64,000 nt of DNA from an alpha proteobacterium AAP38 (lineage in GTDB: Bacteria > Pseudomonadota > Alphaproteobacteria > Azospirillales > Azospirillaceae): NCBI GenBank assembly GCA_001296005.1, contig LJHR01000011.1, positions 1 to 64,000 on the forward strand, read 5' to 3'. The notes under the pieces are model-generated. The model was not told the DNA's origin. It saw nothing but the letters and a program-made list of their open reading frames with translations, and did no database searches. A program made the translations under genes and the position numbers. This document shows positions 1 to 15,708 of this stretch, in pieces (position 1 is the first letter of the stretch; each line of letters begins with the position of its first letter).

Positions 1-672
1 CTCGATGCCACGCACCTGGGTCGTGGACAGGGACGCGATCTGGGTCGTCGTCAGCACACCAACCTGGGTTGTGCTCAGCCCGGCAATCTGCGTGGTGGTG
101 AGCACCCGGAACTGCGTCGTGGTCAGGGCTGCGAGATCGGTGGTCTCGATGGCCGCAAACTGCGTGCTGGCCAGAGCCACGATCTGGGCCGTAGTCAGGG
201 CCACGATCTGGGTCGTGGACAGCGCTGCGACGTCGGTGGTTTCAAGCGACTGAACCTGTGTCGTGGTCAGCGCGGTAATCTGGGTGGTGGTCAATCCACC
301 GATCTGCGTCGTCGAGAGGTTGGCGACGTAGGTGCTGTTGAGGCTGCGAACCAGCGTGGTGCTGAGACCGGAAACCTGCGTCGAGGTGAGCGCGCTGAAC
401 TGCGTCGTGCTCAAACCTGTCAGGTTGGCCGTCGAGATCGCATTCAACTGGGTGCTTGTCAGTGCGGCAACGGTTGTCGTTGCAAGGCCTGAAAGCTGCG
501 TTGTCTGCAGCCCCGCTACCTGCGTCGTTGTCAGAACCCCGATCTGGGTCGTCGACAACGCGCTTGCTTGGGTTGAAGAGAGCTGACGAAGGTCTGAAGT
601 CGTCCAGTTGGCGATTGCCGTGGTGCTCAGCTGGCCGATCTGAGTAGTCGAGAGAAACGAAAGGATCGACAT
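1..672 (-). CDS. Octapeptide-repeat (Thr/Ser-rich) protein, N-terminal part, runs off left edge
   Basis: An open frame starts with ATG at 672 and stays open for 224 codons to position 1, so only the N-terminus is present. From residue 7 the protein is 27 consecutive octads of the pattern L-[ST]-[ST]-T-Q-[IVLF]-x-[AGS], for example LSTTQIGG and LTTTQVAG, with no spacer. In DNA this is an imperfect 24-nt period. GGAG lies about 8 nt before the ATG. There is no signal peptide and Cys is absent, which suits export without cleavage. It is transcribed away from the type I secretion genes at 1146-4690, so it is a plausible substrate of that system. The regular spacing of hydrophobic residues suggests a beta-solenoid (inference). 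I cannot name the family. Each octad carries two or three Thr/Ser, which matters because GT41 glycosyltransferases lie nearby. Confidence 0.8.
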   Translation of the reverse strand, partial: MSILSFLSTTQIGQLSTTAIANWTTSDLRQLSSTQASALSTTQIGVLTTTQVAGLQTTQLSGLATTTVAALTSTQLNAISTANLTGLSTTQFSALTSTQVSGLSTTLVRSLNSTYVANLSTTQIGGLTTTQITALTTTQVQSLETTDVAALSTTQIVALTTAQIVALASTQFAAIETTDLAALTTTQFRVLTTTQIAGLSTTQVGVLTTTQIASLSTTQVRGIE

Positions 673-1145
673 GGCTACGACTCCAGAGCATGAAAAGTGG
701 ATCTGCGGAAACCTTCCCTGCCTGGAAGACCTCCATCTCGATTAATCCGAAATAGCCTTGCAAGACATATGCCGAATTAACCGAAGCCCACGCAATCTGG
801 AGCCGACAACCGGAAAGGTACGCAACCACGGACACGCACAAAAAGGCGCAGCCGGAAGGCCGTGTTCAATCCCCTTTTGGTCTAGGCGCCCAAATTTTTT
901 GGGTCAGTGTGGATAGAATACCCATCGCGGTGATGAGTCAAGTTACATTCGGTGTACCTCCACCGAAGCCGGCCCTCGGCAGCGTTGCATTAGGGGTATC
1001 TCACATCTCCTATGCCTTTGGGCGTAGGTCGTGGATCATTTCCCGCCTCCGGGAGCAGGCATGTCGCTTTTTTGTCGTGTGTTTTGGAGAATCGCTTTAG
1101 TTTCCGGGTCACGTTGCTCCCTTTTCCTGCCGATGGACGTGGCGA
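673..1145. other. Divergent intergenic region between repeat protein and secretion ABC gene
   Basis: This 473-bp stretch separates two divergent genes and must hold both promoters. The only clear structure is a short dyad at 889-903 (CCCAAA, three T, TTTGGG). The reading frames inside are short, lack convincing ribosome sites and resemble no family I know. No clear sigma-70 promoter could be assigned by eye. Confidence 0.5.
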
Positions 1146-3275
1146 TTGTCCCCTTACATGACGGTTCTGAGGTGTCTTTTCCTGGTGGCGCTGCACCATG
1201 GCGTGCAACTCCATCCGGATGAGTTGCCGCCCGATGTGCCGGGCGATCCTGTGCCGGCCGTACTGAAGTCCATGCATGGCGCCGGCCTGAGAGGCCGCAA
1301 GACGCGCATCAACTGGAAGTCCGCCTGTCACCTAGGCAGTGCTTACCCGGCAATTGCGATCCGCAAGGATGGCACCTGGGTCATTCTTGCCTATGCGATG
1401 GAGGTGGAGGGCCGGATGTCGGCCGCCGTGCTGGACCCCACGCGTGAGGCCGAAGGCATACAGTTCCTGTCCGAGGAGGAGTTTACCTCCACCTGGACGG
1501 GCGAGATCATCCTGGCCAAGCGCGTCTGGGCCCTGATGGATGAGAACCAGCCCTTCGGCTTCCGCTGGTTCCTGCCGGAGATCCTGCGCAACGCGAAATT
1601 CTTCCGCGGTGTCGCTATCGCGGCAATCATGGCCAATCTGATCGGTCTGGCGCTGCCGATGATGTTCCAGGTGCTGGTCGACAAGGTGATTACCCACCAT
1701 AGTTACCAGACGCTGTTCGTCATCGTTCTGCTCTATGTATTGCTGACGCTCTTTGACGGGTTCTTCGGCTATGTCCGCCAGAATCTCATGCTGCTGGCAT
1801 CGAACAAGATTGATGCCAAGCTGACCAGCCGTACCTTCCGGCACCTTCTTTCGCTGCCGCTGCATTTCTTCGAGCGCAATAGTGCGGGTATCCTGACCCG
1901 GCATATGCAGCAGACAGAGAAGCTGCGTCATTTCCTGACCGGCAGGCTGTTCCAGTGTTTTCTGGATACCGTCACATTGCCGGTGCTGCTGGTGCTGCTG
2001 TTCCTGTATAGCGGGCTGCTGACGGCTGTGGTGCTGGCCTTCTCCGTCGTCATCGCGGCGATCATCGGCTTCATGGTGCCGATCTTCCGGCTGCATCTGG
2101 GGCGGCTGTACGAGACGGAGGCCAGCCGTCAGGCGCATCTGGTCGAGACGCTGCATTCCATGCGCGCCGTCAAGTCACTGGTGCTTGAAGAGAACCGGCA
2201 GCAGGCATGGGACAGCAAGGTGGCCCTGGCCGTCCGGCGCCATGCCAAGGTTGGCGGCATCAGCATCCTGGGTACCGTGCTGACGGGCGGCCTGGAAAAG
2301 CTGATGCAGATCAGCGTGCTTGCCATCGGCGCTGTTCAGGTCTTCGACGGCGCCATGACACTGGGCGCGCTGATCGCTTTCAACATGCTTTCGGGCCGCG
2401 TTACGGGGCCGCTGCTGCAGATCGTGGCCTTGATCAACGAGTACCAGGAGGCGGACCTGTCGGTGCGCATGCTGGGCGAGGTGATGAATACCGAGCCGGA
2501 GCGCAGTGGCCATTCCCGTCAGTCCCGTCCGTACATTACGGGCAAGATGTTCTTCGAGGATGTGACCTTCCGGTATGCCCCCGGCGCCACGCCGGCGCTG
2601 GACCGCGTCTCCTTCGACATCGAGGAAGGACAGGTTGTCGGTATCGTCGGCCGGTCGGGATCGGGCAAGACCACGATCACCCGCCTGATCCAGTCCATCC
2701 ATGTTCCGCAGGAGGGCCTGATCAAGCTGAACGGTATCGACCTGCGCCATATCGAGCTGAACCATTTGCGCAAGTCCATCGGCGTCGTGCTGCAGGACAA
2801 TCTTCTGTTCCGCGGCACTATCCGCGAGAATATCGCTGCGGCGCGTCCCGATGCGCCGCTCCATGAAATCCTTCAGGCAGCCCAGATGGCGGGCGCTGAT
2901 GAATTCATTGACCGGCTGCCTTTGTCCTATGACACGATGGTCGAGGAGAATGCTTCCAACTTCTCCGGCGGTCAGCGCCAGCGTATCGCCATCGCCCGCG
3001 CCTTGGTGACACAGCCGCGTCTTCTGATCTTTGACGAGGCGACCAGCGCGCTTGACCCCGACAGCGAGGCCATCGTTCAGCGCAACCTTACACGCATCGC
3101 CGAGGGACGTACCATGATCATCGTCTCGCACCGGCTGTCGTCATTGGTTCAGGCTGACAAAATCATCGTTCTGGAACAGGGCAAGTTGGTTGACTGCGCC
3201 CCGCACCCCATCCTGCTGCAACGCTGCGACATTTATCGGCACCTATGGCAAACCCAGACACAGCACATCCATTGA
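1146..3275 (+). CDS. Type I secretion ABC transporter (permease/ATPase, HlyB-like)
   Basis: This is the inner-membrane ATPase of a type I secretion system, exporting unfolded substrates with an HlyD adaptor and an outer-membrane channel. Residues 1-125 form a C39-peptidase-like domain that keeps the LRCLFLVALHHGV helix but lacks the catalytic Cys-Gly motif, so it should bind substrate rather than cleave a leader, as in HlyB. A six-helix transmembrane domain spans about 150-440. The nucleotide-binding domain follows with Walker A GRSGSGKTT (about 501), signature NFSGGQRQR (about 605), Walker B LLIFDEATSALD and H-loop IIVSHR. The start used is TTG 1146; ATG 1158 is an in-frame alternative, and neither has a strong ribosome site. 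The 3' end overlaps the adaptor gene by 31 nt, implying coupled translation. Confidence 0.93.
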   Translation: MSPYMTVLRCLFLVALHHGVQLHPDELPPDVPGDPVPAVLKSMHGAGLRGRKTRINWKSACHLGSAYPAIAIRKDGTWVILAYAMEVEGRMSAAVLDPTREAEGIQFLSEEEFTSTWTGEIILAKRVWALMDENQPFGFRWFLPEILRNAKFFRGVAIAAIMANLIGLALPMMFQVLVDKVITHHSYQTLFVIVLLYVLLTLFDGFFGYVRQNLMLLASNKIDAKLTSRTFRHLLSLPLHFFERNSAGILTRHMQQTEKLRHFLTGRLFQCFLDTVTLPVLLVLLFLYSGLLTAVVLAFSVVIAAIIGFMVPIFRLHLGRLYETEASRQAHLVETLHSMRAVKSLVLEENRQQAWDSKVALAVRRHAKVGGISILGTVLTGGLEKLMQISVLAIGAVQVFDGAMTLGALIAFNMLSGRVTGPLLQIVALINEYQEADLSVRMLGEVMNTEPERSGHSRQSRPYITGKMFFEDVTFRYAPGATPALDRVSFDIEEGQVVGIVGRSGSGKTTITRLIQSIHVPQEGLIKLNGIDLRHIELNHLRKSIGVVLQDNLLFRGTIRENIAAARPDAPLHEILQAAQMAGADEFIDRLPLSYDTMVEENASNFSGGQRQRIAIARALVTQPRLLIFDEATSALDPDSEAIVQRNLTRIAEGRTMIIVSHRLSSLVQADKIIVLEQGKLVDCAPHPILLQRCDIYRHLWQTQTQHIH

Positions 3276-4690
3276 TGCGGCCCTTCCAGGGTCTGCGTGA
3301 GCGCTGGCGGCGGTTCTACGGGACGCCGGCCCCCCGTCTGCACGTGGCCCCCGAAGCCATCGAGTTCCAGTCGGAACTGGAGATGATTGTCCGCGAACCG
3401 CCGCCACCCATCCTGGGCGCGCCCCACCTGATTGCGGCGGGGATGCTGGCGTTGATGGCCATCATCGCGTGCTTCGTTCAGATGGACCGCGTCGTGGTGT
3501 CCACGGGCCGCCTGGCCACGCAGGTGCCGCCCATCGTGATGCAGCCGCTGGAACGTTCCATCGTGCGTCAGCTGCTGGTGCAGCCCGGCGACCGCGTGAC
3601 CAAGGGGCAGTTGCTGGCCACGTTGGACCCGACCTTCACGTTGGCCGACCGCAGCGCCCTGTCGGCACAGCAGCGCGCCTTGTTCGCGCAGTTGCGCAGG
3701 CTGGAGGCGGAGGCGGCGGGCAAGACCTTGCCCGAAACCATGGCCAGCAGTGACGATCCGGACATGGCGCTGCAGGCCCGGCTGTTCCTGCAGCGCCAGA
3801 CCCAGTACCGGTCGCATCTGGACAGTCTGGACAGCGGCATTGTCAGTCTTGATGCCTCGATGCGGGCCGCCCAGGATGATGAGAAGTCGTTGATGGCCCA
3901 GATGGTGGTCTATCGCGACGTGGAGAACCTGCGCTCACAGCTTTTCAAGGCGCAGACGGGGTCGCGGCTGCAGCTTCTGGAGGCGCAGGCCCAACGCCTG
4001 GAGACCGAGCGGTCGTTGCAGGCCACCAGCAACCGTATCAAGGAATTGCAGGCTGATCTGGCCGCAAAGCGGGCCGAGCGGCGCAATTTCGTGGATGACT
4101 GGCAGCGCCAGCTTCTGGAACAGCTTGTGGAGACGCGCCGTCAGGCATCACAGGTTGATGAGGATCTGGCCAAGGCCGTCCGCCGCAACGATCTGGTGGA
4201 GATGACGGCCCCCGCCGATGCCATCGTGCAGGAAGTGGCGCGTCTGTCGCCCGGTTCTATCGCGCGAGAAGCCGAAGCGCTGATTACCCTGGTGGCGCTG
4301 GATACGCCGCTGATCGCCGAGGTGGTGATCCAGTCCGGTGACATCGGCTATGTCAAGGCGGGCGATCCGGTCGAGGTGAAGGTTGCACCGTTCCCGTTCC
4401 AGCGCCATGGCATGCTGAAGGGCCGGCTGCGGTCGGTCTCGCGGCAAAGCTTTGTGCCGGGTACGGCGGAGCCGCTGGACGCGCTGCGCACGCCGATGGT
4501 GGCCGGCGCCTATGTGCATACGGCCCAGGTCGATCTTGAAAGCCTGACGCTGGAGCGCATGCCGCCGGGTGCTGTGCTGACGGCGGGCATGGTGGTGCAG
4601 GCCGAAATCAAGGTCGGCAGCCGGAGCCTGATGTCCTATTTCCTCTATCCCGTGCTGCGCGGACTGGACGAGTCCCTGCACGAACCCTGA
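3245..4690 (+). CDS. Type I secretion periplasmic adaptor (HlyD/membrane fusion family)
   Basis: The 481-residue protein has a short cytoplasmic N-terminus, one membrane helix at about 61-80 (HLIAAGMLALMAIIACF) and then the HlyD order: lipoyl-like half-motif, a long alpha-helical hairpin rich in Gln, Ala, Leu and Arg (about 130-330), second lipoyl half and beta-barrel. It would bridge the ABC transporter at 1146 to a TolC-type channel, which is not in this window. The gene overlaps the end of the ABC gene, and its own stop directly abuts the stop of the convergent glycosyltransferase gene at 4691, sharing a TGATCA junction. Length and domain order are normal for type I secretion adaptors. Confidence 0.92.
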   Translation: MANPDTAHPLMRPFQGLRERWRRFYGTPAPRLHVAPEAIEFQSELEMIVREPPPPILGAPHLIAAGMLALMAIIACFVQMDRVVVSTGRLATQVPPIVMQPLERSIVRQLLVQPGDRVTKGQLLATLDPTFTLADRSALSAQQRALFAQLRRLEAEAAGKTLPETMASSDDPDMALQARLFLQRQTQYRSHLDSLDSGIVSLDASMRAAQDDEKSLMAQMVVYRDVENLRSQLFKAQTGSRLQLLEAQAQRLETERSLQATSNRIKELQADLAAKRAERRNFVDDWQRQLLEQLVETRRQASQVDEDLAKAVRRNDLVEMTAPADAIVQEVARLSPGSIAREAEALITLVALDTPLIAEVVIQSGDIGYVKAGDPVEVKVAPFPFQRHGMLKGRLRSVSRQSFVPGTAEPLDALRTPMVAGAYVHTAQVDLESLTLERMPPGAVLTAGMVVQAEIKVGSRSLMSYFLYPVLRGLDESLHEP

Positions 4691-6547
4691 TCAGTCCGCC
4701 CGGATGGCGGCGCGTTCCAGCGTCGCCTCAAAACCGCGTGTGAATGTCTGCGTGTCGCCCAGGGTGGCCTGCCAGCGTTGGGGCGTCGTCCGGTCGCGGA
4801 TGGCCCGGTAAAGGTCCGGCGTGTCGTGCAGTGCTACGGCCCGCTCGATATAATCATCATCGGCGGTGGTGATCAGTTCCGGCAGGTCCATGGCCCGCAG
4901 CAAGGCCCCGGCCATCCGGCTGGCGAAGGTTTCGCGTGATAGGGTCAGGATCGGCAGTCCGGCACGCAGCGCGTCGCTGGCCACCGTGCCGGCATTATAA
5001 GGTGTTGTATCCAGGAACAGGTCGGCCAGCGCCATGCGGGCGCGGTAACGGTCGGGCATGGCACGGGGGGAAAAGATCAGCCGGTCGGGATCGACCCCGT
5101 GCCGCACAGCCTGTGCCCGCAGATTGCCCACCACCCAGCGATTATCCTCCAGTAACCAAAGGACGCTGTCGCGCGTGCGGGCCAGGATGCGCATCCACAG
5201 GGTGAACATTGCTTCGGAAATCTTGTAGGAGCCGCAGAAGCAGCAAAAGACGAACCGGTCCTGCGGCAGGCCTTCATCCGCGCGGCTGATATCGGCCATC
5301 GGCACGGGCCGGCCATCATTGGCCTGATAAACGCCTGGCAGATAGAGCGGGCGGGGCCAATATTGATCCGCGATGGACGGCGGGACCGCATATTCATCGG
5401 TCAGAATGTAATCCAGCTCCGGGATCGGTATTGGCCCGATGAAGCCTAAATAGGTCATCTGTACCGGCGCCGGCTTCCAGCGCAGCACGTCCAGCCGTTC
5501 GCCCACGGTAAGACCGTTGAGGTCGATCAGGATATCGATCTCATCGGCTCGGATCTGCTGGGCGACTGTTTCATGGTCCTTGTCGCGGACAAGGCGGCAA
5601 TGGTCCAGGGCCGCCAGCACGCGGGCGCGCATGTCGCTGCCATCATCCGGGCTGGAGCAATAGCCATAAATCTCGAACCGGTCACGGTCGTGCCGTTCCA
5701 GCAGTTCGGCTACCAGGAAGGTCATGGCATGGCGGCAGAAATCCGACGACATATAGCCGATGCGCAGCCGACGATGGGCATAGCCGGTGGCAGGTGCCAG
5801 GGAGTGCGTCACGGGCACCGGTCGGCGGTCCAGCCAGGATTGCACCGTCCGCCGCTGTTCGGCCACATTGTCGGCCAATGCCAGCGTGGCGAGCCCGCCG
5901 CACTGGTCGCGCAGCTGTTCAACCGTCAGGCCCGGAATGCCCGGCCCGAACAAGGGCCAGGCGCACATGTTCTGCCGGACGAAGGCCCAGTGCTGGACCA
6001 CATAATGCTGGTCGGGTTTGGTCAGCAGGCTTCGGTAATAGGTCGCTTCCGCCTCATCCAGGCGGGACTGCTTTTCCAGCAGCCGGCCCCGCTGGTTCAG
6101 CAGCTTGGTTCGCGCTTCGTCATCTTGCAACGCAGCGTTGATTGTCGCCAGGGCCGTTTGCGTATCGCCCGCCGCCTCGCGGATGCCCGCGATATTAATG
6201 GCGGCCTGCCACAAGGTCGGCTGCAACAGAAGGGCGTTGGTGTAAGCGGTTGCCGCCGCACCGGGATCGCCCCGCGCGGCCAGTTCGACGCCCAGATTGA
6301 ACCAGATCGCGGCGCTGCCTACACCGCCATTGCCGGGCGAAATCAGCCATTCATGCAGCATGTCAGCGGCCCAATGCCGGTTGGGCATGGGGTCTACCTG
6401 CGCCACGGCGGCCATCGCCTCAATCGCCGGCAAGCCCGACAAGAGATGCCGCCAGCGGCTGCGCGTTGCCGGATCAGCCGGGGATAGGCCGGGCGGCGCC
6501 CCCCGCAGATCGGCGATCAGCAGATCGACAGCGGAGGGCGCTGTCAT
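4691..6547 (-). CDS. TPR-SPINDLY family O-linked glycosyltransferase (GT41), second copy
   Basis: The N-terminal 190 or so residues form tetratricopeptide-like helices, and the rest is a GT41 (OGT/SPINDLY) catalytic region. Recognisable segments are LRIGYMSSDFCRHAM, IDILIDLNGLT, PAPVQMTYLGFIG, FVFCCFCGSYKI and LFLDTTPYNAGTVASDALRAG. These enzymes transfer a sugar from a nucleotide sugar to Ser/Thr, or sometimes Asn, of proteins in the cytoplasm. It is the last gene of a minus-strand operon. ATG 6547 overlaps the upstream TGA as ATGA, giving 618 residues; an upstream in-frame ATG at 6562 would add five. It is a diverged paralogue of the neighbouring copy rather than a recent duplicate. Acceptor and donor are unknown; the nearby octapeptide-repeat protein is a candidate acceptor. 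Confidence 0.88.
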   Translation of the reverse strand: MTAPSAVDLLIADLRGAPPGLSPADPATRSRWRHLLSGLPAIEAMAAVAQVDPMPNRHWAADMLHEWLISPGNGGVGSAAIWFNLGVELAARGDPGAAATAYTNALLLQPTLWQAAINIAGIREAAGDTQTALATINAALQDDEARTKLLNQRGRLLEKQSRLDEAEATYYRSLLTKPDQHYVVQHWAFVRQNMCAWPLFGPGIPGLTVEQLRDQCGGLATLALADNVAEQRRTVQSWLDRRPVPVTHSLAPATGYAHRRLRIGYMSSDFCRHAMTFLVAELLERHDRDRFEIYGYCSSPDDGSDMRARVLAALDHCRLVRDKDHETVAQQIRADEIDILIDLNGLTVGERLDVLRWKPAPVQMTYLGFIGPIPIPELDYILTDEYAVPPSIADQYWPRPLYLPGVYQANDGRPVPMADISRADEGLPQDRFVFCCFCGSYKISEAMFTLWMRILARTRDSVLWLLEDNRWVVGNLRAQAVRHGVDPDRLIFSPRAMPDRYRARMALADLFLDTTPYNAGTVASDALRAGLPILTLSRETFASRMAGALLRAMDLPELITTADDDYIERAVALHDTPDLYRAIRDRTTPQRWQATLGDTQTFTRGFEATLERAAIRAD

Positions 6548-8508
6548 GCCGGTTGCGTCCATAGCCTGGCATCGCGCGGAACCGGTGTCAGGGCGTGCCG
6601 CTTGGCCAGGGACTTGCGGTACCTATCCTCGTAATCCGGCAGGAAGCCGAATTCCTCGGCATCATGGTCCATGGCGCTGCCGATTTCCAGGTAAAGGTCC
6701 AGATTGGTCAGGTCGGGGACGGGCAGGGCGCCGGCCTCCCATTCCGCCCACATGCGGTCGAAGGCATCCTCCATCGCACGCGCGAAACCATTGGTGTTGA
6801 ACAGAACGGACGTGTGGCGCAGGTCCAGAAGCTTCTGCCGGGCAGCGGCCAGGGCTGCCGGGTCACGTCCTAGCCGCACGGCCATTTCCACATAGGCTGC
6901 CGGGCTATCACACACGAATTCCGGCATGCCGGCAGCGGTCACCAGCGAGGCGCAGACACGGGATGCGAAGCCCCGGCCGGGCAGGGTCAGGACGGGCACG
7001 CCCATCCACAGCGCATCCGATGCCGTCGTGTGCGCGCCATAGGGGCTGCTGTCCAGGAACAGGTCGGCCAGAACATAGCGGGCCAGATGCTCGGCATTGG
7101 CGGCATAAGGGGCGAAGATCAGGCGGGCAGGGTCGATACCGGCCTTGGCCGCCTCTTCCCGCAGGCGGCTATCCCCCTCGTTTCCGCCGCGCAGCAGCCA
7201 GAGGACGGAACCGTCGACCTGCCGCAGGATCTCCAGCCAGCGGTCCAGATTGAAGCGGCTCATCTTCTGCTGGCCGTTGAAGCAGCAGAACACCACGCCC
7301 TGTTCCGGCAATCCATGCTGGGCGCGCGTCTGCGGTTCCGGCGAGATGACGCGATGGCGGTCATTTGGCTGATAGCAGGGGACCCGCTCCACCTTCTCGC
7401 TGTAATATTTTTCCGATCCGGGCGGAATGATCACCGGATCGGCGATGATGTAATGGTGATAGGGGCTGGCCATCGTGCCGGGATAGCCCAGCCAGTTGAC
7501 GATGATCGGGGCGGGCCGGCGGCCCAGCATCCGTGTGCGGGCATCCCGCGTATTGCCATTAATATCAACCAGGATGTCGATCCCGCACTCCTCCACCAGA
7601 GCCGCGGCCGCCGCATCATCCAGGCTCGTGATATCGTGCCAGTGATCGACACTGCCCCGTATGCGCTGCATCACCACATCCTCAAGGCGCACGCCGCAAT
7701 AAAATGCGGTCACCTCGACACGGGAGCGGTCATGCAGGCCGAACATTTCCGCCGTCAGATGGCCGATAGCATGGTTGCGCAGGTCGGACGACAGATAGCC
7801 GATACGCAGGCGTCCATCAGGCGCGCGTCGGCGATGGGCGAAATCGGCGCTGGTCTTGAACTCATCGGGCCAACCCACATCCAGCCGATTATGGGAGTAG
7901 GCATTGGCGAGGCTGAGTATCGGATCGTCGGTGAAATAGGCCAGCGTCAGGGGGGCCAGCGTGGCCATGATCTTTTCCGGCGTCACAGGGCCAAAAGATT
8001 GCAGTACCGGCCATTTGCATTGCCGCTGACGGACATTGGCCCAGTGCTGCATTTCCTCCCGCCGTCCTGGGGCCACATCGAGCGACAGGCGCAGCGCCGT
8101 CTCAGCCTCGGACATTTCCTGCCGGCTCATCCGCACGCGGGCCAGCTGCTTCAACGCGGTCAGCTTGTAATTGATGGTATCGGAGGAAACATTCGACAGG
8201 TTGGTGACGGCATGGCCCCAATACTGGAGGGCCATGTCGACCTGTCCCACCCGTTCCAGGGCGGATCCCAGCGATATGACGGCGGGCGTGAAATCCGGTC
8301 GTGCACGCACCGCCTCGTTGAAGGAATAGAGCGCGCCATTGCCGTCTTCGCCGCTCAATTGCAATGAGCCGAGATTGAACCAGGCCGCATGTATGGTCGG
8401 GTGCCCTTCATTGGCCGCCAGCCAGTCCTGATAAACACGGATGGCAGCTCCCTTGCCATGCTCCGCTTCGGTGGCGTGGGCGAGGGCGAACAGCTCGAAG
8501 ATATCCAT
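6544..8508 (-). CDS. TPR-SPINDLY family O-linked glycosyltransferase (GT41), first copy
   Basis: The 654-residue protein carries TPR-like repeats (about 1-180) and a GT41 catalytic domain with RLRIGYLSSDLRNHAIGH, IDILVDINGNT, PAPIIVNWLGYPGTM, VVFCCFNGQQKMSRF and LFLDSSPYGAHTTASDALW. The first of these contains the conserved His region of OGT-like enzymes. Starts are uncertain: ATG 8508 is used here, and TTG 8517 is three codons upstream; no clear Shine-Dalgarno is visible for either. It lies 33 nt after the UDP-glucuronate decarboxylase gene and overlaps the second GT41 gene at an ATGA junction, so the three are probably one operon. The C-terminal 70 residues after the catalytic domain are extra relative to the second copy. 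Confidence 0.88.
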   Translation of the reverse strand: MDIFELFALAHATEAEHGKGAAIRVYQDWLAANEGHPTIHAAWFNLGSLQLSGEDGNGALYSFNEAVRARPDFTPAVISLGSALERVGQVDMALQYWGHAVTNLSNVSSDTINYKLTALKQLARVRMSRQEMSEAETALRLSLDVAPGRREEMQHWANVRQRQCKWPVLQSFGPVTPEKIMATLAPLTLAYFTDDPILSLANAYSHNRLDVGWPDEFKTSADFAHRRRAPDGRLRIGYLSSDLRNHAIGHLTAEMFGLHDRSRVEVTAFYCGVRLEDVVMQRIRGSVDHWHDITSLDDAAAAALVEECGIDILVDINGNTRDARTRMLGRRPAPIIVNWLGYPGTMASPYHHYIIADPVIIPPGSEKYYSEKVERVPCYQPNDRHRVISPEPQTRAQHGLPEQGVVFCCFNGQQKMSRFNLDRWLEILRQVDGSVLWLLRGGNEGDSRLREEAAKAGIDPARLIFAPYAANAEHLARYVLADLFLDSSPYGAHTTASDALWMGVPVLTLPGRGFASRVCASLVTAAGMPEFVCDSPAAYVEMAVRLGRDPAALAAARQKLLDLRHTSVLFNTNGFARAMEDAFDRMWAEWEAGALPVPDLTNLDLYLEIGSAMDHDAEEFGFLPDYEDRYRKSLAKRHALTPVPRDARLWTQPA

Positions 8509-8541
8509 GGCTTGCAACGCGTCAGTTGACGGGACGGATGA

Positions 8542-9501
8542 TCAGGCCAGGGACACGCCCAGTTGATCGGCGAAATAGGCGATGGTGCGCGTCAACCCTT
8601 CCTCCAGATGGATGGTCGGCTGCCAGTTCAGGAGGGTTTTGGCTTTGGTAATATCGGGGCAGCGCTGCAGGGGGTCGTCCTGCGGCAGGGGTTTCCAGAC
8701 GAATTCCGATTTGGCGCCCGTCAGCCGCACCACATTCTCCGCCAGCTGACGGATCGTGTACTCCCCGGGATTGCCGATATTGATGGGGCCGGTCACATCG
8801 TCCGGCGCGGCCATCAGACGGATGAAGCCCTCGATCAGATCATCGACATAGCAGAAGGATCGGGTCTGGGTGCCTTCGCCATAGATGGTGATCGGATGGC
8901 CCTGCAGGGCCTGCACGATGAAGTTCGACACCACGCGCCCGTCATTGGGGTGCATGCGCGGGCCATAGGTGTTGAAGATGCGGGCCACGCGGATATTGAC
9001 GCCATTCTGGCGATGATAGTCGAAGAACAGGGTTTCCGCGCAGCGCTTGCCCTCGTCATAGCAGGCGCGGGGCCCGATCGGGTTCACGTTGCCGCGATAA
9101 TCCTCGGTCTGCGGGTGTACCGTCGGATCGCCATACACTTCCGACGTGCTGGCCTGGAAGATCTTGGCCTTGGTCCGCTTGGCCAGCCCCAGCATGTTGA
9201 TGGCCCCATGGACGGACGTCTTCGTCGTCTGCACGGGATTGAACTGATAATGGATGGGCGATGCGGGACAGGCGAGATTGTAGATCTCGTCCACCTCCAC
9301 AAAGAGCGGGAAGGTGACGTCGTGGCGCATCACCTCAAAATAGGGGTTGGGGATCAGGTGCCGGATATTTTCCCGCGAGCCCGTGAAGAAATTATCGACG
9401 CACAGCACCTCGTGCCCGTCATTCAGCAGTCTTTCGCACAGGTGTGAGCCCAGGAAACCGGCACCCCCAGCCACCAATACCCGCTTGCGTGCGCGTTTCA
9501 T
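8542..9501 (-). CDS. UDP-glucuronate decarboxylase (UDP-xylose synthase)
   Basis: An extended short-chain dehydrogenase of 319 residues that converts UDP-glucuronate to UDP-xylose using bound NAD. The NAD-binding glycine motif [14 protein letters not shown] is at the N-terminus. The family signature [12 protein letters not shown], the STSEVYGDP segment and the catalytic YDEGKR (Tyr-x-x-x-Lys) follow, then [12 protein letters not shown] and the C-terminal [13 protein letters not shown]. An AAGGA ribosome site precedes ATG 9501. It is the first gene of the operon with the two GT41 genes, so it may supply their donor sugar or a precursor for surface polysaccharide. The assignment to the UXS family rather than to another epimerase is firm from the NLACPASP motif. 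Confidence 0.92.
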
Positions 9502-9679: not shown

Positions 9680-10387
9680 TTGGCCATCGCCCTTCGTCAT
9701 TGCATCGCGCTGACCGGTCTTCTGGCATTGGCGGCCTGCGGCAGTCCGCCACCGGTTGTGCAAACCCCGGCGGCACCCGTGCGGCCTGCGGACCCGGAAC
9801 TGGTCTTCTGGGAGAGCGTGCGGGATTCCAAGGATCCTGCCGAATATTATGCCTATCTCCACGCCTATCCGGCGGGCCGCTTCTCCGCCCTGGCGCGACT
9901 CCGGATCGAGGCGCTGACCCCGAAGGTGCAGAAGGAAGCCGCATCACCGCCCAAGGCCAAGCAGCCGGCCATATCTAACCGGTTGCCGGCCCCGCCGCCC
10001 AGCCATCAGCAGGGCGAAACCACCATCGCCGAAGCCCCGGCGCCGCCCGTCAACTGGGCCAAGATCGATGATCTGTCGGGCCGGGCCGGGCCGTTGCTGC
10101 GCAGCCAGATCATGGATTGCTGGGAACCGCCGCCGCTGCCGCGCGGGGCCGGCAGTTTCCGTGCTGAAATCGGCATCTATTTCGACCCCGCGAACGGCAA
10201 GGTGCGGGGGGCGGCCTTCCTTGGGGGCAATCGGGAGATGACCGACGACGTGTTCTCCCGTTTCGTCAACAGCGCCGTCGCCGCCCCCATGGCACCGGCC
10301 TGCCGGTCGCTTGACCTGCGCCAGGCCGGGGGCGGTGCCGACGCTGCCGGCCTGGTCCTGCTGTTTGCATTGGACAGTCCGCCGTAA
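9680..10387 (+). CDS. Lipoprotein with TolA/TonB-like C-terminal domain
   Basis: TTG 9680 is the likely start, preceded by AGAGGA at good spacing. The protein has a lipoprotein signal peptide with lipobox LALAAC (Cys at about residue 21). Next comes the short motif pair DPAEYYAYLHAYPAGRF, common in alphaproteobacterial envelope and caspase-like proteins, then a Pro/Ala-rich linker. The C-terminal region (about 130-235) contains IMDCWEPPP and FRAEIGIYFDPANGKV, resembling the TolA or TonB C-terminal fold used for partner binding in the envelope. Function is unknown beyond a likely periplasmic, membrane-anchored role. It is divergent from the UDP-xylose operon and its stop is 5 nt from the end of the convergent gene at 10393. 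Confidence 0.7.
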   Translation: MAIALRHCIALTGLLALAACGSPPPVVQTPAAPVRPADPELVFWESVRDSKDPAEYYAYLHAYPAGRFSALARLRIEALTPKVQKEAASPPKAKQPAISNRLPAPPPSHQQGETTIAEAPAPPVNWAKIDDLSGRAGPLLRSQIMDCWEPPPLPRGAGSFRAEIGIYFDPANGKVRGAAFLGGNREMTDDVFSRFVNSAVAAPMAPACRSLDLRQAGGGADAAGLVLLFALDSPP

Positions 10388-10392
10388 GGTCG

Positions 10393-11286
10393 TCAAGCCA
10401 TTGAAACTTCCTCCCCCGTTTCCTGTCGGGCACTGTTGATACGGGCTAAATCCTTAAGCCGTGCCTGTTTCCACTCCGGGTCAAGATAGCGTTTCTCCCG
10501 CCGCGCCTCACGACATGCATCTATGGCAAGTTCCCTTGGGTCTGCGCCTGCCGGTGGGCGCAAGTCCATAGGCACCCGCTCCAAAAGCGTTGCTTGAGCC
10601 TTTACATCCATCGCCGGCGCTGTCTCCAGCCAACTTTCCGCATCCCGGAAATGATTATGAAGTGCGAGAGCAGTCATGTATGGGCAGGCGGATAGAAGCT
10701 TAGGTTCTGATACTTTGTTGAGTACAATCATTGGCAGCAGGGGGGCCAGGCTGGGGGCCGCCAGATTGGCGTAGATTTCTGCCTTCCAATAAAGCTTCGC
10801 GATATCGCAGAAATGAGAAATATTCCGAATGGCTTCCAGCCCACTTTCGGTCATGGGTATTATCTCAACTTTTGGCTTTGTGATGTTCACTGTGTCATTT
10901 GCAACGTCGACATACAGACTTCCAATCTGAGTGGCGTTCTGGAAATAGCGCTCCCGCAATGCGCCCCAAACGGGTCTGATCAAGCCGCCTTGACGGCGGA
11001 ACGCATGCAAGGCCCGTTCAGCGCGGGTGGTGGGTGCTGCTATCCGTTTCAGGAGGTGCTGACGGACGGCTGTGGTAATTTCCTCACATCGCCCTACAGG
11101 ATATGGGATATTTTTGTTAAACGGATACTGTCTTGCCAAGCCAGGGTCCAATTCCCGGCGTAAACCCATTAACATATCTTGCATATCGGTTAATACGGGA
11201 ACAATAAATCTCTTGGTAAGTGCATTCTGTTTTCTGTCAGTGGGAACCGGCTGGTGGTTCAAGTAGCCTGATATGATGCTGTTCAT
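10393..11286 (-). CDS. Protein of unknown family, divergent from siderophore receptor
   Basis: A 297-residue soluble protein without signal peptide or membrane helix. I do not recognise the family. Visible landmarks are YPVGRCEEIT (about 62-71), the stretch VWGALRERYFQNATQIG and LYVDVANDTVNITKPKVE, which have the density of conserved charged and aromatic residues expected of a real domain, and a basic C-terminal helix. The base composition is visibly less GC-rich than its neighbours (runs such as 10680-10740 and 10800-10930), which may indicate acquisition by transfer. It is read divergently from the TonB receptor and shares with it the 11287-11550 region containing a Fur-box-like palindrome, so iron regulation is possible. 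Start ATG 11286 has only a weak AAGAAA upstream. Confidence 0.7.
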   Translation of the reverse strand: MNSIISGYLNHQPVPTDRKQNALTKRFIVPVLTDMQDMLMGLRRELDPGLARQYPFNKNIPYPVGRCEEITTAVRQHLLKRIAAPTTRAERALHAFRRQGGLIRPVWGALRERYFQNATQIGSLYVDVANDTVNITKPKVEIIPMTESGLEAIRNISHFCDIAKLYWKAEIYANLAAPSLAPLLPMIVLNKVSEPKLLSACPYMTALALHNHFRDAESWLETAPAMDVKAQATLLERVPMDLRPPAGADPRELAIDACREARREKRYLDPEWKQARLKDLARINSARQETGEEVSMA

Positions 11287-11442: not shown

Positions 11443-11550
11443 TATAGTCCCTGCCGGACGGGATCGGTGATGTCGGGCAAACTGCTGACATCATAAGCGA
11501 ATAAGAAGCATTTGCGTCCTTGTAGGGCGCACCAGAAAGGTTTGAAAGAG

Positions 11551-13917
11551 ATGGACGAGAAGATGAATTCCCAGGTGGCGCGCGGCCGTATGGCCCTGAT
11601 GGCGGCCCTGTCCGTTGGTGTGGCGGCCTCTGCCGCCCCGGCGCTGGCCCAGCAGGCGACGGCGCCCGCTGCCAAGGAAGGCGAGAAGACGACCGTCGTG
11701 CTGCCGACCCTGGGGGTGGAAGGCCAGGCGGCGGCACCCGCCAACAAGCCGGAAGTGGTCGCGTCCCCGAAATATACCGCCCCGCTGCGTGAGACGCCGC
11801 AGACCATCACCGTTATCCCCAGCACGGTGATCAAGGAACAGAACCTGTTAAGCCTGCGCGATGTGCTGACCAACGTTCCGGGTATCACCTTCGGTGCGGG
11901 TGAGGGCGGTGCTGGCGGTGCCGACAGCATCACGCTTCGTGGCTACAGCGCCAACAGTGACATCACCGTCGATGGCGTACGCGACAGCGGCGCCTATGTC
12001 CGTTCCGACAGTTTCAACCTGGAACAAGTCGAAGTCACGAACGGGGCCAATTCCGTCTATTCTGGCTCCGGCGCTGTGGGCGGCTCCATCAATCTGGTCT
12101 CCAAGACGGCCAAGGATGACAGCTTCACCCAGGCCAGCGCTGGTATCGGCACCGACAATTATTACCGCGCCACCGTTGATGCGAATCAGATGCTGGACGA
12201 CAACACGGCACTGCGCATCAATGGCATGTGGCACCGCAACGACGTGCCGGGCCGCGATGTGGAAGAGTTCAAGCGCTGGGGCTTTGCACCGTCACTGACG
12301 CTGGGGCTGCGCAGCGATACCCAGGTGTCTTTCAGCTATTTCCACCAGGAAGATAACAATATCCCGCAATATGGCGTGCCCTACGCCCTGAACGCTTTTT
12401 CCAATGGCATTCTGCCGGGTGCGGACGGCGAGGCCTATTACGGCTATCGCAACATCGACACCCAGGAAAGCACGGTCAATACCGCCACGGTGAAGATCGA
12501 TCACCGTTTCAACGACAGTCTGTCGGTCAGCAACCTGTCCCGCTGGCAGAAGGTAGATGCATTCGTCACCACCTCTTACCTGCAGGGCACCTGGTGTCTG
12601 TCCAGCGGCATCAACGCCTATACGGGTGCGGCCTGTACCACGCCCGGCCTGTTCACGCCGAACACTAACCGCGGCATCACCCGCGATGCCAGCACCACCA
12701 TGCTGTATAACCAGACCGACCTGAAGGCGACGGTCGTGACGGGCGGCATCACCCACGATCTGGTGCTGGGCGCCTCGATCTCATCGGAGAGCTTTGACCA
12801 GAAGTCGGGCAACCGCCTGCGCAATGCCAATGGCACCGTGCCCACGGCCAGCTTCACGCCCATCACCATAGCCAACCCGGAGAATGTCTGGAGCGGCCCG
12901 GTGAATTTCACCGTCACTGCCGACGCCGACAATGAGGTGGAGAATCAGGCCGTCTATCTGTTCGACCGTGTGCAGTTGGGCGAGCAGTTCGAGCTGAATG
13001 GCGGCGTCCGCTGGGAGCATAACAAGGGCAGCGCCCAGACCACCAGCTTCGCCTATGCCGCCACGGGCGTGACGACCACAGCAGCCCCCGCCGCCCGTAA
13101 CGAGGACAATCTGTTCTCCTGGCGTGTTGGGGCCGTGTACAAGCCGGCGTCCAACGGCAGCGTCTATGTCGCCATGGGTAACTCCAAGACCCCGTCGCAA
13201 AGCACGGTGACCGGCGCCTGTACCGCCACGGGCACCAGCACCACCTGCAATGTCGATCCAGAAACGGCCAAGAATTACGAGATCGGCACGAAGTGGGATG
13301 TGCTGGATGGGCGCCTGGGTCTGACCGCTGCTTTGTTCCGCAACGAACGCACCAATTACCGCGTGGCCTCCAACGATCCGGGCATCCCGGACCAGCAGTT
13401 GGACGGCAAGTCGCGTGTCAACGGCGTGGCGCTGGGTGTCGCAGGCACGGTGATGGAGGGCTGGAACGTCTTTGCCAATTACAGCTATCTCGACACCAAG
13501 GTTTTGCAGGGCGTTTCCGATTTCTGTCTGGCCAATCCGACCGTTGCGGCTTGTGCGACCGCTCTGGTCGGGACTAATGGCCGCGCCGGCGCACCGCTGA
13601 CGGCCACGCCCAAGAATGCCTTCAGCCTTTGGACCACCTATGATCTGCCGGTCGGCGTACAACTGGGTTATGGCGCGACCTTCACTGGCAAGATGTATCC
13701 CAACAATGCCAACGCCATCATGCGCACGGCGCCGGGCTATTGGGTTCACCGCGCCTCGGCCAGCTACTTCGTCAATGATCAGGTCGAACTGCGCCTGAAC
13801 GTCAACAACCTGTTCGACAAGACCTATTACACCCGTATCCGCAATGTTGCGGCCAGCGGCTGGGCTACGCCGGGCGAGGCGCGCAACGCCATGCTGACGG
13901 TGAATTACAGCTTCTGA
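11551..13917 (+). CDS. TonB-dependent siderophore receptor (Fiu/catecholate type)
   Basis: An outer-membrane ferric-siderophore receptor of 788 residues from ATG 11551; a TTG at 11512 would add 13 residues ahead of the signal peptide. The signal peptide is long and ends near APALAQQ. A TonB-box-like segment (VVLPTLGVEG) is followed by the plug domain with PQTITVIP, LRDVLTNVPGITF, ITLRGYSANSDITVDGVRD and VEVTNGANSVYSGSGAVGG. The barrel ends with the typical terminal Phe (TVNYSF). A ferrichrome or hydroxamate substrate cannot be excluded, but pairing with a PKHD hydroxylase at 14068 is typical of Fiu/PiuA-like catecholate receptors. A Fur-like box is at 11420-11442 and a terminator follows the gene. 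Confidence 0.93.
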   Translation: MDEKMNSQVARGRMALMAALSVGVAASAAPALAQQATAPAAKEGEKTTVVLPTLGVEGQAAAPANKPEVVASPKYTAPLRETPQTITVIPSTVIKEQNLLSLRDVLTNVPGITFGAGEGGAGGADSITLRGYSANSDITVDGVRDSGAYVRSDSFNLEQVEVTNGANSVYSGSGAVGGSINLVSKTAKDDSFTQASAGIGTDNYYRATVDANQMLDDNTALRINGMWHRNDVPGRDVEEFKRWGFAPSLTLGLRSDTQVSFSYFHQEDNNIPQYGVPYALNAFSNGILPGADGEAYYGYRNIDTQESTVNTATVKIDHRFNDSLSVSNLSRWQKVDAFVTTSYLQGTWCLSSGINAYTGAACTTPGLFTPNTNRGITRDASTTMLYNQTDLKATVVTGGITHDLVLGASISSESFDQKSGNRLRNANGTVPTASFTPITIANPENVWSGPVNFTVTADADNEVENQAVYLFDRVQLGEQFELNGGVRWEHNKGSAQTTSFAYAATGVTTTAAPAARNEDNLFSWRVGAVYKPASNGSVYVAMGNSKTPSQSTVTGACTATGTSTTCNVDPETAKNYEIGTKWDVLDGRLGLTAALFRNERTNYRVASNDPGIPDQQLDGKSRVNGVALGVAGTVMEGWNVFANYSYLDTKVLQGVSDFCLANPTVAACATALVGTNGRAGAPLTATPKNAFSLWTTYDLPVGVQLGYGATFTGKMYPNNANAIMRTAPGYWVHRASASYFVNDQVELRLNVNNLFDKTYYTRIRNVAASGWATPGEARNAMLTVNYSF

Positions 13918-13946
13918 TCCACCCGTCCCGTGGGATTGGAGGCTGT

Positions 13947-13980
13947 GGCGGCGGTCACGTGAAGTGGCCGCCGCCTTTTT
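13947..13980 (+). terminator. Rho-independent terminator after siderophore receptor
   Basis: A 12-bp GC-rich stem, GGCGGCGGTCAC pairing with GTGGCCGCCGCC through one G-U pair, with a 5-nt loop, is followed directly by five T. It lies 30 nt after the receptor stop. Confidence 0.85.
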
Positions 13981-13994
13981 CATGGTTGCTTTGA

Positions 13995-14020
13995 TGCAAA
14001 TCAGAGTGGATCGCATTTGC
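13995..14020. promoter_or_regulatory. Fur-box-like inverted repeat before the PKHD hydroxylase
   Basis: TGCAAAT (13995-14001) and GCATTTGC (14013-14020) form an inverted GCAAAT/ATTTGC pair, about 48 nt before ATG 14068. The composition resembles iron-responsive operators, but the inner part fits poorly, so regulation by Fur is tentative. Confidence 0.4.
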
Positions 14021-14067
14021 GGATGCTATAGGCTGCGTCTCACGGTATTCAGGCAGGACCCTTTATC

Positions 14068-14748
14068 ATGATGATCAGCATTCCCGACGTTTTGACCCCG
14101 GAGCAGGTGCGGCAGTGCCGCGCGGCCCTGGATGCCGCTGACTGGGTCGATGGCAAGATCACGGCGGGGTTCCAGTCTGGCAAGGTCAAGGAGAACAGCC
14201 AGCTACCGGAAGGCCACCCGGTGGCGCAGCAGCTGGGGCAGGTGATCCTGGATGCCTTGTCAAAGAGCCTGCTGTTCATGTCGGCGGCCCTGCCGGCGCG
14301 AGTGTTCCCGCCCTTGTTCAATCGCTATGCCGGGGGACAGCATTTCGGCCCCCATGTCGATAATGCCATCCGACAGGTCCCGTTCGGCGGTCCGCGCATC
14401 CGCACCGACCTGTCGTGCACCCTATTTTTCAGCGACCCGGATGAATATGAGGGCGGGGAACTGGTGGTAGAGGACCTGTATGGTCATCACGCCGTCAAAC
14501 TGCCGGCGGGGCATATGGTGCTGTATCCCAGTTCCAGTCTGCACCATGTGCGGCCTGTGACGGCGGGGGCGCGTGTCGCCTCCTTCTTCTGGCTGCAAAG
14601 CATGGTGCGCGATGATGGCGAGCGCCGGACCCTGTTCGACATGGACATGGCCATCCTGGCGCTGAACAAGGATATGCCCGACCATCCGGGCATCCTGTCG
14701 CTGACCAACACCTATCACAATCTGCTGCGCCGCTGGGCGGAGGTGTGA
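14068..14748 (+). CDS. PKHD-type Fe(II)/2-oxoglutarate hydroxylase (PiuC/YbiX family)
   Basis: A 226-residue cytoplasmic oxygenase. The iron ligands are visible as HFGPHVDNA (HxD, about residue 95) and the distal His in [10 protein letters not shown] (about 158), with Arg 11 residues later (ARVASFFW) for 2-oxoglutarate. The length equals that of the PiuC/YbiX family, whose genes commonly sit beside Fiu/PiuA receptors. The exact substrate of these enzymes is not settled. Placement directly after the siderophore receptor supports a role in iron-siderophore handling. The intervening terminator and Fur-like motif suggest its own promoter. Confidence 0.92.
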
Positions 14749-15612
14749 TCAAACCACCTCCGCCAACCAGGCCGAGAACGCCCTCAGTGCGGGGCCGGGC
14801 AGGCGGGATTTGGGCCAAGTCAGCCAGTAGCGGCCCGTGGTGATGGTGGGGGTGAAGGGCTGGATCAGACGGCCCGCCGCGATCTCCTTCGCAAACATCA
14901 TCACCGGCGCGATGGCCACACCATGGCCCTGCATCGCCGCCTCCACCATGATCCAGGAACTGTCGAAAACGGGGCCGCGTAGCGGCGGGCAGGTGGCGTC
15001 GGCGGCGGCAAACCAGTTGGGCCATTCATCCGACCGGTATGACCGCAGCAGCCGTTCCCCCGCCAAATCGGCGGGACCTTGCAGGCGGGCCGCGATGGCG
15101 GGGATGCAGAGGGGCGACATCGGCGCCGTGAACAGGGCCTGAGCTTCCATCCCGTGCCAGGCGCCGTCACCGAAACGGATGGCAGCGTCCAGCCCCTCGG
15201 CTTGGATATCGACGCGGTTATTGTTGGTGGACAGGCGCAGATCAATGAAGGGATGGTCGGCCAGGAACCCATCGATGCGCGGAAGCAGCCAGCCCGCCGC
15301 AAAGGTGCCGACCACGCCCACCGAAAGCAATTCCGTGACGGGTCCACCATCAAACCGGTGCAGCAGGCGGGCAATCTGATCAAAACTGTCGCGTACGCCG
15401 GGCAGCAGGGCCATGCCCTCATCCGTCAGGACCAGACCGCGCGGCAGGCGGCGGAACAGGGTGGCGCCCAGCCGGGCTTCCAGCCCTTTCACCTGATGGC
15501 TGACAGCGGCCTGCGTCACGCACAGCTCAATGGCGGCCTTGGTGAAGGATAGGTGCCGGGCCGACGCCTCAAAGGCGCGCAACGCGTTCAGGGGCAGGTG
15601 CGGGCGGGTCAT
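14749..15612 (-). CDS. LysR-family regulator (GcvA/AmpR-like)
   Basis: A 287-residue LysR protein. The winged helix-turn-helix is at about 5-64 (PLNALRAFEASARHLSFTKA, then TQAAVSHQVKGLE), followed by the periplasmic-binding-protein-like effector domain (about 92-287). The LNALRAFEA start and FTKAA segment are typical of the GcvA/AmpR branch. It is divergent from the class A beta-lactamase with 96 nt between starts, the classical ampR-bla arrangement, so it probably controls that gene and itself. In AmpR systems the effectors are muropeptides; whether that holds here is inference. Confidence 0.88.
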   Translation of the reverse strand: MTRPHLPLNALRAFEASARHLSFTKAAIELCVTQAAVSHQVKGLEARLGATLFRRLPRGLVLTDEGMALLPGVRDSFDQIARLLHRFDGGPVTELLSVGVVGTFAAGWLLPRIDGFLADHPFIDLRLSTNNNRVDIQAEGLDAAIRFGDGAWHGMEAQALFTAPMSPLCIPAIAARLQGPADLAGERLLRSYRSDEWPNWFAAADATCPPLRGPVFDSSWIMVEAAMQGHGVAIAPVMMFAKEIAAGRLIQPFTPTITTGRYWLTWPKSRLPGPALRAFSAWLAEVV

Positions 15613-15708
15613 GCATGGCCTAGTTTTTCTAATGCTTCATCCGATTTATCACAGTTTGTCGGAGTCTGACAGCACCGCTACCTTGTCCGCACAACAAGGG
15701 AGACAGAG
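15613..15708. promoter_or_regulatory. Divergent promoter region of LysR regulator and beta-lactamase
   Basis: The 96-bp gap contains an AT-rich imperfect dyad at 15619-15634 (CCTAG, five T, CTAATG) near the regulator start. It is a candidate LysR box. A GGGAGA ribosome site for the beta-lactamase lies about 5 nt before its ATG. No strong sigma-70 hexamers are obvious. Confidence 0.4.

Follow-up and report, generated by a model that had tools for sequence, protein, structure and literature searches.

What is made by a locus that encodes a repeat protein, a type I exporter and two GT41 glycosyltransferases side by side? The question is raised by the first six genes of the window, by which we mean the whole stretch of DNA that was analysed, that is, the first 64 kb of contig C3 of a Niveispirillum genome, starting at base 1. 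An earlier note on this DNA had proposed a self-contained system, in which a Thr/Ser repeat protein is O-glycosylated, perhaps with a xylose-derived sugar, before or during export. Here, we examine this proposal by means of genome comparison, profile searches and structure prediction. We will show that the repeat protein and a GT41 enzyme constitute a conserved core, to which the exporter, the second enzyme GT41a and the UDP-xylose synthase (UXS) are optional additions, and that the Ser/Thr content of the repeat varies together with the type of GT41 enzyme, Rhizobiaceae excepted. In our view, the product of the locus is probably a giant O-glycosylated protein that is secreted or displayed at the surface, the GT41 enzymes glycosylating its solenoid in the cytoplasm before type I export. 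The earlier proposal is partly supported: it gains from the GT41-repeat link and from the co-variation of candidate sites, while the five genes as one unit and the role of xylose hold only in some lineages or weakly.

All genes named in the earlier note were located where it had placed them, in the two facing units that it described, and profiles and solved relatives confirm them as real. They are the following (bit scores are for the family or solved structure given):

672 to 1, minus strand: ALTTAQ-repeat protein, N-terminal 224 residues; Pfam PF20080; no stop, runs off the contig start
1146-3275 (frame open from 1101), plus strand: ATP-binding cassette (ABC) exporter, HlyB-like; HlyB, PDB 7sgr, 458 bits
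3245-4690, plus strand: HlyD-type periplasmic adaptor; TIGR01843, 287.7 bits against a cut-off of 208.65
4691-6562, minus strand: GT41a, tetratricopeptide repeats (TPR) and OGT-like glycosyltransferase; Pfam PF13844, 232.5 bits; relatives go with Ser/Thr at octad position 3
6544-8517, minus strand: GT41b, TPR and OGT-like glycosyltransferase; Pfam PF13844, 280.7 bits; relatives go mainly with position 4
8542-9501, minus strand: short-chain dehydrogenase/reductase, UDP-glucuronate decarboxylase (UDP-xylose synthase, UXS); human UXS1, 432 bits; possible donor supply

A conserved pair of repeat protein and GT41 enzyme

The central result comes from searching 84,980 species genomes with an alignment of GT41b, which gave 210 relatives. 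The best 80 were kept, listed at 47-94% identity and including some Niveispirillum again. An ALTTAQ array is present in the locus for 74 of these 80. In 68 of the 74 array loci there is no intervening open reading frame of at least 100 residues, in 66 the two genes are on the same strand, and in 58 the array lies upstream. Of the six loci without an array, five (L127, L128, L133, L134 and L198) touch a contig edge; the sixth is considered below. As a control we used the best GT41 match in 20 of the 36 other genomes of the class that had one, three of these contigs being shorter than 9 kb, and none of the 20 loci has an ALTTAQ array, an HlyB at 55% identity or more, or a UXS at 70% or more. According to the earlier note, GT41 genes lying apart from the repeat gene in most relatives would speak against the proposal. 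The comparison was run and did not refute the link. That note had also described the link as proximity only; the 74 of 80 relatives against 0 of 20 controls, together with the co-variation at the candidate acceptor sites described in the next section, make it more than that.

The same comparison bears on the expectation that all five genes stay together across relatives. This holds for the repeat protein and the GT41 enzyme and only in part for the rest: among the best 80 loci, HlyB (at least 55% identity) and HlyD (at least 40%) are each found in 25, GT41a (at least 50%) in 24 and UXS (at least 70%) in 19. When only loci of 17 kb or more are counted, HlyB is present in 19 of 48. Five genes as one unit is the arrangement of the Niveispirillum and Roseomonas-group loci.

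Within Niveispirillum, 11 genomes were compared, the window's own included. Nine of them have the exporter at 72% identity or more, and the ALTTAQ gene is visible beside it in seven of the nine; in G003 the contig ends there. No ALTTAQ gene is found in the whole of G001 at E ≤ 1e-6, and G004 and G008 are also without an array. GT41a and GT41b occur together in seven genomes (G000, G002, G003, G006, G007, G009 and G010), in six of which the UXS is linked, G010 being the one where it was not seen; in G005 the contig cuts GT41a.

The repeat protein itself could be characterized from two pieces. Since the window begins at the contig start, which cuts the gene, it holds only the N-terminus, in which 24 octads were counted and which matches Pfam ALTTAQ_rpt with 159.3 bits against a cut-off of 26.4. 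A C-terminal piece of 245 residues is located at the end of contig C1 and shares 94% identity with the final 244 residues of the orthologue in G006 (locus L055), a protein of 1970 residues whose neighbours match those of the C1 piece. The octad consensus is hydrophobic-[ST]-T-T-Q-[ILV]-x-x. Tandem Repeats Finder found no array in the DNA; the repeat is regular as protein, not as DNA. With the repeat pattern used for counting, 734 of 824 open reading frames gave no match, 9 gave one and 81 gave four or more, and Pfam confirms PF20080 in four distant arrays (L203, L143, L209 and L169). The six linked repeat proteins for which composition was counted have no or one Cys, and more acidic than basic residues.

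AlphaFold2, run on the window piece with five relatives, predicts one short helix per octad (mean predicted local distance difference test score, pLDDT, 93.6), and the same pattern is obtained for an unlinked paralogue of the same genome (contig C34, locus L011; pLDDT 91.9). In both the linked and the unlinked array the predicted helix begins at octad position 3 in 24 of 24 octads, so that in the models position 2 would be the helix N-cap and positions 3 and 4 the first helix residues. At position 2, Ser/Thr is retained whether or not the array is linked. From the sequence, a beta-solenoid or a fold like that of ice-nucleation proteins had been considered, which was rejected in view of the helical prediction. 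The best solved match of the repeat model in Foldseek is mesothelin (PDB 8cx3, E 3e-4), which is a structural neighbour only, the low TM-score of 0.40 and the 15% identity giving no evidence of kinship. The paralogue just mentioned (L011:10332-15401) is a second ALTTAQ protein of 1689 residues that has little Ser/Thr at positions 3 and 4 and near which neither a GT41 nor an exporter is seen; it is conserved in N. cyanobacteriorum (L121), and a similar one is found in G074 (L118).

Both glycosyltransferases belong to the GT41 family, as PF13844 scores above its cut-off and the OGT-like active-site His and Lys are present. GT41b matches XcOGT (PDB 2jlb) with 284 bits and OGT chains with up to 283 bits, while GT41a reaches up to 248 bits against OGT chains. 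The His and Lys columns are invariant in both alignments: H249 and K418 of GT41b align with XcOGT, and the corresponding residues of GT41a are H278 and K447, all of which we take to be the catalytic residues known from OGT-like enzymes. GT41a has a glycine where GT41b and the OGT chains have the His of the HTT motif. In trees, the GT41a-type and GT41b-type enzymes form separate clades with a Shimodaira-Hasegawa-like approximate likelihood ratio (SH-aLRT) support of 100 each; these are quick trees without bootstrap, for which every third of the GT41b loci and every second of the GT41a loci among the 80 were sampled. A third lineage, outside both clades, is formed by the GT41 enzymes that accompany the L209 and L210 arrays.

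We now consider how far the arrays extend beyond the genus. In a sample of the class, arrays at E ≤ 1e-8 are found in 6 of 289 genomes. A GT41b-linked array is present in G000, G006, G009 and G235, an unlinked extra one also in G000, G006 and G235, and unlinked arrays only in G074 and G174. The unlinked array of G235 is the third of that genome (L113 and L114, at about 4.05 Mb); it is T-rich, lies in an open frame of 3232 residues and has no GT41 in either fetched flank. In a sample of the phylum, 25 of 398 genomes have arrays, and 18 arrays, of other classes and families, were fetched from 17 of the 24 other genomes. Eight of the 18 have a GT41 in the stretch or within about 10 kb (G641, G345, G351, G355, G381, G384, G409 and G660), and five lie beside an HlyB at 57-58% identity. 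GT41 genes at E ≤ 1e-15 occur in 18 of the 24 genomes, the six without being G493, G496, G571, G680, G529 and G555. Members of family f185 (G351, G394, G405, G409 and others) have giant ALTTAQ open frames of up to 5692 residues and up to 40 GT41 matches per genome, some of these in open frames of 2000-3800 residues with several GT41 stretches.

The pair is also carried by plasmids. Among the plasmid records matching GT41b (55), 10 were examined besides N. cyanobacteriorum, and nine of them have an array (Pseudoroseomonas, five Rhizobium, Pseudorhizobium, Shinella and Pseudomonas), the one without being Azospirillum brasilense (38%). Six further matches to GT41a, out of 47, were examined; arrays are present in Rhodovastum, two Cereibacter and Pseudomonas asturiensis, and there is none in Azospirillum oryzae and Variovorax (38-41%). 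Plasmid pA of Cereibacter sphaeroides 2.4.1 carries a compact version of the locus, in which the array, annotated as an ice nucleation protein, lies beside a divergent unit of GT41 (GT41a), ABC exporter and HlyD. On the Pseudoroseomonas cervicalis plasmid (L277:1612-6699) the ALTTAQ region is broken up into several open frames that are not all in the same reading frame, which reflects either decay or an assembly problem; the adjoining exporter, UXS, GT41b and GT41a are open.

Candidate acceptor positions and enzyme type

If the GT41 enzymes act on the repeat, the octad positions at which they act might be visible in the composition of the arrays. In the window piece, the Ser/Thr fraction is 1.00 at position 3 and 0.92 at position 4. 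Of the 80 loci, 58 contain linked arrays with 20 or more pattern hits, 63 arrays in all; for these the mean fractions are 0.65 and 0.76, respectively, and the higher of the two is always at least 0.52. The arrays of the six GT41-free genomes, on the other hand, have at most 0.28 at position 3 and 0.31 at position 4, and when four other unlinked arrays (L011, L121, L118/L247 and L249) are added to them, neither position exceeds 0.36. In these Ser/Thr-poor arrays, Ala, Pro, Asp and Glu are frequent there.

The two positions also differ according to the enzymes present. In loci with both GT41a and GT41b (n=17), the Ser/Thr fraction at position 3 is 0.85-1.00 and the mean at position 4 is 0.85. 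In loci of 17 kb or more with GT41b only (n=31), position 3 spreads over 0.29-0.81, with a mean of 0.73 at position 4. Six loci have GT41a and no GT41b within the fetched stretch, and here position 3 is 0.71-0.95 and position 4 only 0.06-0.26. That GT41a-only loci should use position 3 alone was a prediction for which G660 and a Pseudomonas plasmid were already known to fit; the newly fetched Rhodovastum, Cereibacter (two strains) and P. asturiensis arrays agree, with 0.75-0.95 at position 3 and 0.06-0.26 at position 4. When the octads were anchored on Gln instead, the values for the nine arrays tested hardly changed. Both positions are rich in Ser/Thr in the L209 and L210 arrays, which go with the third GT41 lineage.

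Judging from this co-variation, position 3 would be the target of GT41a-type enzymes, and position 4 the main target of those of the GT41b type. A bolder formulation, which we put forward tentatively and as somewhat less than an even chance, is a two-register code, with GT41a marking position 3 and GT41b position 4 at hundreds of sites per chain, resulting in a mucin-like solenoid that would be exported by type I secretion. On the same tentative footing, loci with one enzyme would keep mainly the Ser/Thr of that enzyme's register, with a switch of register in Rhizobiaceae, and the arrays of enzyme-free genomes would keep neither.

Proposed export, possible sugar donor and the weighing of alternatives

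The mechanism that we propose can be outlined as follows. The repeat protein would be a long alpha-solenoid with one short helix per octad, as predicted. In the cytoplasm, the two TPR-GT41 enzymes would transfer sugar to Ser/Thr at octad positions 3 and 4, using a nucleotide sugar that might, more speculatively, be UDP-xylose from the adjacent synthase. The modified chain would then leave through the neighbouring HlyB/HlyD-like type I exporter and an outer-membrane channel encoded elsewhere, the exporter presumably recognizing the C-terminus of the chain; where an exporter is linked, N[AS]LF is a frequent ending of these proteins. At the cell surface, the result would be a fibre that resembles a mucin and carries a dense coat of sugar.

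The exporter is HlyB-like, although it is not a member of the HlyB subfamily TIGR01846 in NCBIfam, as it scores 599.9 bits against a cut-off of 725.55 even though residues 25-720 of 724 are covered. The earlier note had called it leader-peptide-independent. This is likely, as no C39 peptidase is among its Pfam hits, but it is not proven, as NCBI names relatives "peptidase domain-containing ABC transporter". The HlyD adaptor adjoins the ABC gene and passes the TIGR01843 cut-off. A link between exporter and substrate is suggested by the C-termini: among arrays whose C-terminus lies in the fetched stretch, the tail N[AS]LF is present in 17 of 24 with an HlyB of at least 55% identity and in 0 of 50 without. 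The 17 comprise 14 from Acetobacteraceae or unnamed Rhodospirillales and 3 from Niveispirillum, and because they are concentrated in these few lineages they represent few independent events. The use of the exporter as a search anchor was tried and abandoned: in eleven fetched neighbourhoods of 47-51% homologues from other genera of the family, an ALTTAQ gene was seen in L064 alone, and about 50% exporter identity alone is therefore no marker of the system.

As for the donor, the closest solved relative of the UXS is human UXS1 (4gll/2b69), with the next other enzyme at 141 bits; no NCBIfam model scores above its cut-off for this gene. It is the only match in the genome at E ≤ 1e-30. A UXS lies near the array in 8 of 12 Caulobacterales-type loci and in 0 of 8 Magnetospirillum/Telmatospirillum-type loci, while other lineages have other sugar genes nearby, namely the dTDP-rhamnose genes rfbABCD in Cereibacter and glf in two Rhizobiaceae records. 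The donor may thus differ by lineage. With a UXS in 19 of 80 loci, the xylose-derived sugar of the earlier suggestion is plausible, but as a weak, lineage-level guess.

A number of observations weigh against the mechanism proposed here. All neighbourhood and co-variation counts share ancestry, which the Fisher values calculated here do not take into account. In locus L197, no array accompanies the GT41b relative, although there is space for one on either side. An exporter of at least 55% identity is absent from the stretches of all 12 Caulobacter/Phenylobacterium/Asticcacaulis-type and all 8 Magnetospirillum/Telmatospirillum-type scan loci. In G001, the exporter orthologue (73%) has no ALTTAQ partner genome-wide and is found some 6 kb away from a giant repeat protein of another kind, which possibly represents a substrate swap. 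As regards the acceptor positions, the Rhizobiaceae enzymes fall inside the GT41b clade and yet their arrays favour position 3 (0.56-0.86), not 4 (0.17-0.30), and the Shinella array is Ser/Thr-poor (0.13 and 0.17) despite an adjacent GT41b. T-rich arrays with no GT41 in the fetched flanks also exist (L113/L114 in G235, and L212-L214, L217, L218 and L221-L223 in several genomes of family f185, some ending at contig edges). As GT41 genes are present at other places in these genomes, the enzymes might act from a distance. Finally, near the L219 array a BLAST label had suggested a GT41, which was not counted, as only a TPR protein without a GT41 domain is present there. In G001 (L060 and L122), the giant repeat protein looks cadherin-like by eye, and other GT41-like genes lie between it and the exporter.

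One alternative is that the linked type I system carries other adhesins and not the repeat protein, which would stay inside or take another route. The 55 of 80 loci without an exporter at the 55% level and the presence of the same exporter in G001 without any ALTTAQ gene are in line with this, as is the fact that Pfam listed no RTX repeats for those repeat proteins that were scanned. However, exporters of this subfamily are found next to ALTTAQ arrays of two classes, the P. asturiensis array lies beside TolC, HlyD and a different type I ABC protein, and the C-terminal tail differs with the presence of the exporter. We consider this alternative unlikely, although it deserves to be kept in mind. 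Somewhat less probable still is that GT41 and ALTTAQ genes merely share a cell-surface sugar island, the enzymes modifying another protein or a polysaccharide and the repeat protein being a scaffold or adhesin. Several loci do hold FkbM-type methyltransferases, glf, rfbABCD or sulfotransferases, and the T-rich arrays without a nearby GT41 fit this scenario as well. The recurrent neighbourhood is nevertheless that of ALTTAQ and GT41, with few other genes recurring, and the Ser/Thr at helix positions 3 and 4 tracks the GT41 type present.

The remaining two alternatives concern the enzymes. The GT41 proteins could serve the repeat protein mainly as TPR chaperones or secretion pilots and have hardly any transferase activity or none, which would be compatible with their N-terminal TPR repeats, with the glycine of GT41a in the HTT motif and with the TPR protein near L219 that lacks a GT41 domain. 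The invariant His and Lys columns of the catalytic domain argue against this, and the co-variation of sites is not obviously explained by a pure chaperone, so that we regard this alternative as highly improbable. N-linked modification, as by the HMW1C/NGT enzymes of the GT41 family, has a precedent in the HMW1C-like enzymes described as N-glycosylating an exported adhesin (PMC3012730). It was rejected on profile scores and sequon density, and we assign it hardly any probability: GT41b matches the O-transferases with the scores given above and the adhesin-named chains 8p0q/8p0o with only 23 bits, it scores 22.6 bits against a cut-off of 1000 for NCBIfam NGTferase (where GT41a is not listed), and there are 0.052 N-x-S/T sequons per 8 residues compared to 1.66 Thr.

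Relation to known systems and neighbouring genes

It is useful to compare the mechanism with known systems. Serine-rich repeat adhesin systems use SecA2/SecY2 for export and their enzymes are not of the GT41 family. They resemble the present locus in combining a large Ser-rich repeat protein, dedicated glycosyltransferases and a dedicated exporter, and differ from it in that the exporter here is of type I, the enzymes are GT41 proteins and the repeat is predicted to form a helical solenoid. These Gram-positive systems, with accessory Sec and dedicated glycosyltransferases, are described in PMC5207161 and PMC7661464. Neither accessory SecA2/SecY2 nor GtfA/GtfB are encoded by the locus, whose six genes are those listed above; this negative covers the locus and not the remaining genome. 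By analogy, the locus would work like a serine-rich repeat/accessory Sec system without being a member of that group.

With the HlyB/HlyD secretion of HlyA, the locus shares the ABC exporter and HlyD adaptor; the difference is that the substrate here has no RTX repeats among its Pfam hits and its C-terminus is often N[AS]LF. XcOGT and the OGT chains (PDB 2jlb and 7yea) have the same GT41 catalytic domain with the active-site His and Lys kept, but we know of no dedicated exported repeat acceptor coupled to them. Precedents for the order of events are the flagellin O-glycosyltransferase FlmG of Caulobacter crescentus and HMW1C of Haemophilus influenzae. FlmG is likewise a cytoplasmic OGT in an alphaproteobacterium, and its modification and efficient export are described as going together; it differs in its flagellin acceptor, pseudaminic acid donor and export by the flagellar apparatus (PMC7591256). 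HMW1C is a GT41 enzyme that modifies the secreted adhesin HMW1 with N-linked mono- or di-hexoses (PMC3012730), and the HMW1 system differs by these N-linked sugars and by two-partner secretion from the OGT-like GT41 enzymes and type I exporter found here. The two cases show, as described in those reports, that cytoplasmic OGT- or GT41-type enzymes can modify secreted proteins (PMC7591256, PMC3012730). No study on ALTTAQ proteins or on such a system was found among open-licence papers, which is no proof that none is in print; a paper on plant SPINDLY came up, and of those listed HMW1C came nearest.

If the proposed mechanism is correct, OGT-like bacterial GT41 enzymes would gain a widespread and predictable acceptor in the giant ALTTAQ proteins of Alphaproteobacteria and other groups, and Gram-negative bacteria would have a counterpart to the serine-rich repeat adhesin systems. 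Since the octad is so regular, the exchange of a single residue in an octad peptide could then reveal how an OGT-like enzyme chooses its sites. The compact version on plasmid pA of the laboratory strain Cereibacter sphaeroides 2.4.1 makes the idea directly testable.

Beyond the cluster, the window contains a number of other genes. A lipoprotein-like protein (9680-10387) and a further protein (10393-11286) have no Pfam or NCBIfam match at E ≤ 0.001, and both stay beside the cluster in several Niveispirillum loci. They are followed at 11512-14748 by a Fiu-like TonB siderophore receptor and then a PKHD-type Fe2+ dioxygenase, and at 14749-16605 by a PenR-like LysR regulator that is divergent from a class A beta-lactamase gene.

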